Shown here: positions 15,681 to 54,564 of the stretch, one piece after another | Layout: every line of letters begins with the position of its first letter | How positions within the stretch are numbered: position 1 is the first letter of the stretch | Source of the DNA: an uncultured Eubacteriaceae bacterium | Lineage (GTDB): Bacteria > Bacillota > Clostridia > Eubacteriales > Eubacteriaceae | Assembly: GCA_945867155.1 (NCBI GenBank) | Contig: CAMBHL010000001.1 | Location: 124,001-188,000, forward strand | Length of the DNA: 64,000 nucleotides | Direction of reading: 5' to 3' | Position numbers and translations under genes: made by a program | Notes under the pieces: model-generated | Told to the model about the DNA's origin: nothing | What the model saw: only the letters and a program-made list of their open reading frames with translations | The model's database searches: none

Positions 15681-15687
15681 TAGGACA

Positions 15688-15966
15688 ACGCAATGAAGAG
15701 GAATATTAGAAAATTGTAAGCGTCCAGAGAGCTATTGGTTGGTGCGAAATAGTCGCTGAATTTTTTTGAACTGGCCTTCGAGCGGTTGGCTGAACGAATT
15801 TCAAGTAGGCACACCGGTTCCTGTCCGTTATCACAGGAGGATATAATCTTTTGACAAAGACGTATCTGTAACAAGGCATTTTGTTGATTCAAAATGTGAA
15901 ATAGAGTGGTACCGCGATTGAGATTGAAATGATCGCCTCTATGCTTTTGCATAGAGGCGATTTTTA
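15688..15966 (+). promoter_or_regulatory. T-box riboswitch, leucine-type (CUG specifier)
   Basis: All T-box landmarks are present. Stem I holds the AGAGAGCT.GGTTGGTGCGAA distal region, and the specifier loop reads GAA-CTG-G, so the specifier codon at 15771-15773 is CUG (Leu). The T-box sequence TGGTACCGCG is at 15907-15916. The terminator hairpin GATCGCCTCTATGC / GCATAGAGGCGA with a T tail is at 15931-15966. Uncharged tRNA-Leu should stabilise the antiterminator and allow leuA transcription, which fits the downstream enzyme. Confidence 0.95.
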
Positions 15967-21212: not shown

Positions 21213-21241
21213 TTTACATTTCTTATTGATCCTGCTATACT
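21213..21241 (+). promoter_or_regulatory. Promoter of an orphan structured RNA
   Basis: TTTACA (21213-21218), a 17-base spacer, TATACT (21236-21241), in a very A+T-rich flank. No protein gene follows on this strand; the transcript would begin near 21248. Confidence 0.8.
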
Positions 21242-21247
21242 ATAGAC

Positions 21248-21551
21248 AAATAAAAGAACAGATGATAAATACAAGAGTAATGAGGTAAATATTAACCCGA
21301 TCGATACCAAAATCCAGCGTATTAAATAGAAGGTTTAGCAATTAATGATGAATTAGTTGGAGAGCGATTTAATAAGGCAGGTTTATCGGAAGATCATAGT
21401 GGTTGATAGGTAAGTAAATTTATCATCGTCTTTTAAATCTAACGAAAGGAGGACGGACCACCAGAAGTGCAAAGTTTAAGTGAGCTTAAAAGGCCAGCTT
21501 GCATCGACTAGAAAGAAATTTTCTAAAGAGAGCAAGACTGGTCTTTTTTTT
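21248..21551 (+). ncRNA. Candidate structured non-coding RNA of unknown class
   Basis: This 550-base gap between cdaA and pyc has no convincing gene but holds a complete transcription unit. A long-range helix closes a domain of about 185 bases: TAAAAGA (21251-21257) with TCTTTTA (21429-21435) and GATGATAAAT (21261-21270) with ATTTATCATC (21418-21427). Inside, ATTAACC (21291-21297) pairs with GGTTGAT (21401-21407), and CAATTAA / TTAGTTG (21339-21359) forms a hairpin. A ribosome-site-like AAAGGAGG (21445-21452) comes next, but only a 14-codon GTG frame at 21467 follows it, spaced too far. An intrinsic terminator ends the unit. It does not match tmRNA, SRP RNA, RNase P or a c-di-AMP riboswitch as I know them; raiA-type RNA of Clostridia is the first comparison I would make. 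Confidence 0.65.
21489..21551 (+). terminator. Terminator of the orphan RNA
   Basis: Stem GCCAGCTTGC (21493-21502) with GCAAGACTGGT (21532-21542), an inner AGAAA / TTTCT helix in the loop, then eight T from 21544. Confidence 0.8.
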
Positions 21552-29091: not shown

Positions 29092-29167
29092 GGGGGTGTG
29101 GCGCAGTTGGGAGCGCGTTTGAATGGCATTCAAAAGGCCAGGGGTTCGAATCCCCTCATCTCCACCA
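29092..29167 (+). tRNA. tRNA-Ala (anticodon GGC)
   Basis: A full cloverleaf with encoded CCA: acceptor GGGGGTG / CATCTCC, D arm GCGCAGTTGGGAGCGC, anticodon arm TTTGA-ATGGCAT-TCAAA with anticodon GGC, T arm AGGGGTTCGAATCCCCT. A single-gene unit with its own promoter and terminator. It marks the left edge of the phage-derived island, and tRNA genes are common integration targets. Confidence 0.96.
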
Positions 29168-49603: not shown

Positions 49604-49636
49604 ATAAAAAAACAGGCATCCTTTGGACTGCCTGTT
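49604..49636 (-). terminator. Expression platform terminator of the TPP riboswitch
   Basis: Stem AACAGGCA / TGCCTGTT with eight T on the minus strand between the aptamer and thiS, consistent with TPP-induced termination. Confidence 0.85.
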
Positions 49637-49649
49637 GATTGCACACTTT

Positions 49650-49729
49650 CTTCCCTACGTTGGCATTATCCAAATCAGGTTCACAGGTCGAAACACGCGT
49701 TTCCTCTCAGCCTTTTACAGCTCCCTGAA
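49650..49729 (-). promoter_or_regulatory. TPP riboswitch (THI element)
   Basis: On the minus strand GGGAGCTGT, GGCTGAGAGGAAAC, GACCTGTGAACCTGATTTGG, ATAATGCCAACGTAGGGAA: all conserved parts of the thiamine pyrophosphate aptamer (the CTGAGA and GGATAATGCCA.CGTAGGGA motifs). It controls thiS-thiG-thiE. Confidence 0.97.
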
Positions 49730-49780
49730 ATTATTAATTGATTGTATTATATCAAATCTCTGCGATTTGGTCAAAACAGA

Positions 49781-54487: not shown

Positions 54488-54564
54488 TGGTGCGCTCGAG
54501 CCGATTCGAACGGCCGACACATGGCTTCGGAGACCATTGCTCTATCCACCTGAGCTACGAGCGC
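54488..54564 (-). tRNA. tRNA-Arg (anticodon CCG)
   Basis: Cloverleaf on the minus strand with encoded CCA: acceptor GCGCTCG / CGAGCGC, D arm GCTCAGGTGGATAGAGC, anticodon arm ATGGT-CTCCGAA-GCCAT with CCG, T arm GGCCGTTCGAATCGGCT. It reads CGG codons. Confidence 0.96.

Follow-up and report, generated by a model that had tools for sequence, protein, structure and literature searches.

Stand-alone RNAs of Pseudoramibacter and Lachnospiraceae carry Shine-Dalgarno units and micro-ORFs that end at the terminator: a candidate ribosome-docking RNA family

Introduction

What kind of RNA is encoded between cdaA and pyc in the 64,000-nucleotide stretch of DNA analysed here (the window)? The first-pass annotation of this DNA described a transcription unit with a promoter and a terminator and no protein gene, and took it for an orphan structured RNA, with the raiA RNA of Clostridia as its first hypothesis. 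We examined the locus, its relatives in other genomes and the readings that could account for them.

Results

The plus-strand transcription unit sits between cdaA, on the minus strand, and pyc, which is convergent, as the annotation had observed. It opens with a consensus promoter, TTTACA-17-TATACT with a TG extension (21213-21241, plus strand), which is kept in all five Pseudoramibacter homologues, including the diverged one of P. alactolyticus, and transcription is predicted to start at about 21246-21248. A structured 5' domain (21251-21435, plus strand) follows. Its closing helix pairs 21251-21257 with 21429-21435 (7 bp) and 21261-21270 with 21418-21427 (10 bp) and is present in the minimum free energy (MFE) fold, and an inner 7-bp helix, read by eye, pairs 21291-21297 with 21401-21407, one of the pairs being G-U; both helices had been proposed in the annotation at these positions. 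Behind the domain lies a Shine-Dalgarno (SD) unit, GAAAGGAGGACGGACCACCAGAA (21444-21466, plus strand), with its SD core AAAGGAGG at 21445-21452 and an 18-nt block that is identical in Lachnospiraceae RNAs. A micro-ORF (21467-21511, plus strand; frame sequence MQSLSELKRPACID) begins directly after it with a GTG at 21467-21469 and closes with a TAG at 21509-21511. The intrinsic terminator already claimed for the locus is also there (21491-21551, plus strand), with a stem region at 21491-21545 and then a T run; a simple terminator scan missed it because its loop is long. Other RNAs in the window are of known kinds, namely a T-box leader (15684-15943, plus strand) and a TPP riboswitch (49635-49737, minus strand), together with two tRNAs (29092-29164, plus strand; 54491-54564, minus strand).

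Folding of the 311-nt RNA, terminator included, gave an MFE z-score of -4.1, and none of 100 shuffled sequences reached an equally low energy. For the closing duplex alone, every one of the five Pseudoramibacter homologues was compared with 1000 shuffles, of which between 0 and 21 did as well. Covariation, judged by eye in four close relatives, is thin: there is one double change (U-A to C-G), along with some G-U changes and also mismatches. In P. alactolyticus the 5' domain is closed by a helix of different sequence.

An Rfam search, which the first-pass annotation had proposed as its check, returned no family above threshold, whether for the window RNA, for its four relatives or for the RNAs found at 15 Lachnospiraceae loci. 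The raiA hypothesis has to be given up, as the locus had no match to raiA (RF03072; model threshold 101.3 bits) even at E ≤ 10, and the same genome has a separate raiA RNA of its own (G000:C1:231619-231820, 175.2 bits). Likewise, 6S RNA (RF00013; model threshold 46.4 bits) had no match at the locus, and the 6S RNA of the genome lies at G000:C1:71528-71706 (70.5 bits). A divergent member of raiA, 6S or some other known class would suit the size, the orphan setting and the clostridial host; with raiA and 6S located elsewhere in the genome and the classes of Rfam 15 rejected for want of any match, we consider it extremely improbable. A phage or virus origin was also rejected, no match having been obtained.

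Homologues of the RNA are present in all five Pseudoramibacter genomes searched, and four of the copies are 85-100% identical. The diverged fifth, that of P. alactolyticus, has another gene neighbourhood, and its promoter, the block AAAGGAGGACGGACCACC, start codon, stop and terminator are all kept. When 84,980 species, each represented by one genome, were scanned for the exact 18-nt block AAAGGAGGAYGGACCACC, 65 loci were obtained. Three are in Pseudoramibacter and five are strays within what looks like coding sequence; the remaining 57 or so come mostly from Lachnospiraceae genera and have the block directly behind a near-consensus promoter without a gene. Of 200 Lachnospiraceae genera, 40 had a match to R1, a sequence model of the SD unit, at E ≤ 0.001, and with the limit at E ≤ 0.1 the number rose to 79, the weakest of which will include chance matches. 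At 25 of the 29 best R1 loci the unit lay within an RNA of the same kind, three others being incomplete and one (L138) unclear. Other Eubacteriaceae gave no match and the class, order and phylum samples nothing convincing; the matches beyond Lachnospiraceae and Pseudoramibacter were weak, and those that were read lay mostly in coding sequence. Some genomes carry a second version of the RNA that bears a structured domain like that of the window copy (L168 and L178). Across loci, the gene downstream of the RNA is convergent in 25 cases and codirectional in 20, and this inconsistency both rejects regulation of a neighbour in cis and bears out the earlier view that the structured RNA stands alone and is no leader. 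In several genera (L090, L092, L095, L140 and L156) the RNA stands upstream of putative membrane-protein genes that seem related by eye, with a basic N-terminus and a gap of about 100 nt. The annotation had also suspected a defined class with conserved blocks, and the Pseudoramibacter homologues and the larger set in Lachnospiraceae agree with this; we consider it highly probable from these comparisons that the two groups share a real, previously undescribed RNA family.

The unit of this family starts with an SD (AAAGGAGG or AAGAGGU); next come a spacer with (G/A)(A/U)CCA at its end, one triplet, a short run of codons and UAA. Many upstream units have CCR or AAR as their triplet, and other units have AUG, UUG or GUG there. 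A start codon is almost always present in the last unit, the start-less units show conservation of their nucleotide sequence, and the spacer is conserved beyond what an SD requires. RNAs carry from one unit, as in the window, to eight in that of Coprococcus comes (L039). In many Lachnospiraceae RNAs the first unit has no start codon and its SD is close to the 5' end, and in the window RNA some 200 nt precede the SD of the only unit, which is followed by GTG. The SD of the window copy, GAAAGGAGG, is predicted to pair at -15.8 kcal/mol with the 3' tail of 16S rRNA, which we take to have its generally known sequence, while among 43 long ORFs called mechanically across the window the best SD duplex is weaker, at -13.1 kcal/mol. 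The value of -15.8 kcal/mol holds for Pseudoramibacter, and first units in Lachnospiraceae reach about -12 kcal/mol. The annotation had listed AAAGGAGGACGGACCACC as a conserved single-stranded block and had guessed that a purine-rich stretch might meet the ribosome. The block is real, but it is more than a single-stranded element, being also a near-perfect SD followed by the GTG and a micro-ORF kept in relatives, and the guess about the ribosome is probably right.

Further features of the RNAs were seen in passing. In the C. comes RNA the units form a near-perfect array, about 56 nt apart, that resembles recent tandem growth. A hairpin with a GAGAAA loop (GAC-GAGAAA-GUC or similar) recurs in L025, L032, L078, L142, L155, L168 and L178, either inside the RNA or as the terminator hairpin. 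In many compact RNAs, a conserved segment, ACACUAUUyrrrrAAUAGUUUyAgAUAGAU, stands between the second and the last unit, for instance in L008, L014, L043 and most Mediterraneibacter/Dorea loci.

Terminators and last ORFs were called mechanically in 46 RNAs. The in-frame stop codon lay -6 to +3 nt from the terminator stem in 39 of them, whereas the two remaining frames gave 10 of 92; with each peptide counted once, 30 of 39 in-frame stops came within 2 nt of the stem, compared to 3 of 78 for the other frames. The Fisher p-value of 1e-16 for this lock between stop and terminator is optimistic because the loci are related, and counting each peptide once lowers the relatedness and leaves some of it. 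The search did not itself select for the last ORF, since the match was an upstream unit in most Lachnospiraceae loci. The micro-ORFs are mostly 5-7 codons long (range 5 to 13; lengths of 5, 6, 7, 9 and 13) and between them use three start codons and each of the three stop codons, and because their lengths differ, the lock is to the terminator and not to a fixed length. At five of the misses (L142, L146, L148, L156 and L168) the script had drawn the stem too long or chosen the wrong hairpin, leaving the window copy and L154 as the real exceptions among the 46 RNAs. Of four loci read later, L180 (MDSIV), L181 (MDTEN) and L183 (MIEVFK) fit and L182 runs into the stem. In L154, L182 and the window copy, the last micro-ORF crosses the first arm of the terminator and stops in the loop, not at the base.

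The four Pseudoramibacter relatives encode MQSLCEF*, MQSLSEI* (twice) and MQNLDER*, with the stop directly at the stem. The window frame opens with GTG CAA AGT TTA AGT GAG from 21467 and reads AAA at 21488-21490, where the four relatives carry TAA, so that it enters the terminator loop and ends there with the TAG at 21509-21511; having lost the conserved stop in this way, the window species departs slightly from the rest of the family. The claim that the unit holds no protein gene is right insofar as the plus strand of the locus has no long ORF, but it overlooks the 7-codon micro-ORF that the relatives conserve. Most micropeptides of Lachnospiraceae start with MD and are acidic, and the peptides vary widely (MDGIS, MIEESM, MNTEDSESC, MQSLSEI). 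The family, its unit, the conserved frame and the lock are all legible in the DNA itself.

Discussion

Overall, the reality of the family is much firmer than the function proposed for it. The reading that we favour, held tentatively and with somewhat less than even confidence, is that of a trans-acting, stand-alone RNA whose SD units dock ribosomes. The 30S subunits would dock on the SD units, which are near-perfect complements of the 16S 3' tail; the start-less units would hold 30S without translation, in the manner of STAB-SD; and at the last unit a ribosome would translate a handful of codons before halting up against the terminator hairpin. Covered with ribosomes in this way, the RNA would take free initiating ribosomes out of use or gauge their supply, and the effects of docking could be titration of free subunits, sensing of initiation or RNA stability alone. 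It is possible, though doubtful, that the full form of this proposal applies, in which a trans-acting family of gut Clostridia docks ribosomal subunits on serial SD/micro-ORF modules and thereby titrates or reports free initiating ribosomes. Expression of the RNA, its docking and stability, and a titrating or sensing role are what we infer from sequence comparison. The strong SDs, the spread of the family, the lock between stop and terminator, the lack of a consistent downstream gene and the STAB-SD precedent suggest docking. Against it stand the ordinary accessibility predicted for the SDs by folding, the loss of the stop at the terminator base in the window copy, L154 and L182, and the conservation of the spacer beyond the needs of an SD, which a specific protein partner would also explain.

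Such a partner is the basis of an unlikely alternative, in which the units bind an RNA-binding protein that recognises GGAGGNAYGGACCACC and free its mRNA targets, as CsrB and RsmZ do for CsrA. The one to eight repeats of a conserved sequence, spacer included, and the GGA motifs in the units are in keeping with a sponge of this type. Titration of CsrA itself was excluded because CsrA is absent from most hosts, no PF02599 match being obtained in any of the four Pseudoramibacter or in 8 of the 13 RNA-bearing Lachnospiraceae genomes tested, and the RNA is possibly a sponge for a protein other than CsrA. A search for the unit with one mismatch in 17 genomes returned the RNAs and strays only and no mRNA leader that could be a motif-bearing target, the strays that were read being coding sequence, and a protein sponge leaves the lock between stop and terminator unexplained. 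C-rich small RNAs of Firmicutes bind SD sequences, and SD repeats would attract such RNAs, but a sponge for them accounts for neither the spacer nor the micro-ORF, and we give it little credence. Similarly improbable is that the RNA is a tiny mRNA with the micropeptide itself as its product: frame, start and stop are kept and most Lachnospiraceae peptides begin with MD and are acidic, yet the peptides of 5 to 13 residues are diverse and the start-less units are conserved as nucleotides. The lock would find a use if a ribosome on the last micro-ORF melted the adjacent terminator and so controlled read-through or the 3' end, since in E. coli translation almost fully represses a terminator placed a few bases behind a gene (PMC4824070), and in most genera no more than 2 nt separate the stop from the stem. 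The same study finds, however, that terminators are efficient when they lie in the initial 100 bp of a coding sequence (PMC4824070), and with 25 convergent and 20 codirectional neighbours the switch has no consistent gene to control; we regard it as distinctly unlikely.

If ribosomes do dock on it as we favour, this would be a ribosome-directed RNA. The family occurs in at least a fifth of the sampled genera of Lachnospiraceae, which are among the commonest human gut bacteria. It is absent from Rfam, and the open papers searched hold no description of it. We know of no RNA that fits its repeated SD modules and terminator-locked micro-ORFs. The family also exposes a blind spot of annotation methods: such RNAs cannot clearly be classed as coding or as non-coding, and so escape gene finders as well as RNA finders that rely on structure.

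Several known systems share single features with the new RNA. The raiA RNA, or ModT (RF03072; PMC11706538), is also an orphan structured RNA of Clostridia, but it shares no sequence or model match with the window RNA, and the genome encodes both. CsrB and RsmZ are, like the new RNA, stand-alone and rich in repeated GGA-containing motifs, whereas most hosts of the new RNA are without CsrA and its units combine an SD with start and stop codons. Leader-peptide attenuators likewise place a short ORF immediately before an intrinsic terminator, but they have a regulated gene downstream, and here no conserved same-strand gene follows, pyc being convergent and the loci as a whole divided (25 convergent, 20 codirectional); the new RNA also adds upstream SD units. 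The closest parallel to docking is STAB-SD of the cry3A mRNA of Bacillus thuringiensis, where 30S is thought to be held on an untranslated SD and to block RNase J1 (PMC4113751). Many Lachnospiraceae RNAs similarly have a start-less SD close to the 5' end as their first unit, and GAAAGGAGG has the complementarity to the 16S 3' tail that STAB-SD displays, although in the window copy this SD lies well inside the RNA and precedes a start codon. STAB-SD is part of an mRNA leader (PMC4113751), whereas the new RNA stands alone and combines repeatable SD units with a conserved spacer and micro-ORFs.
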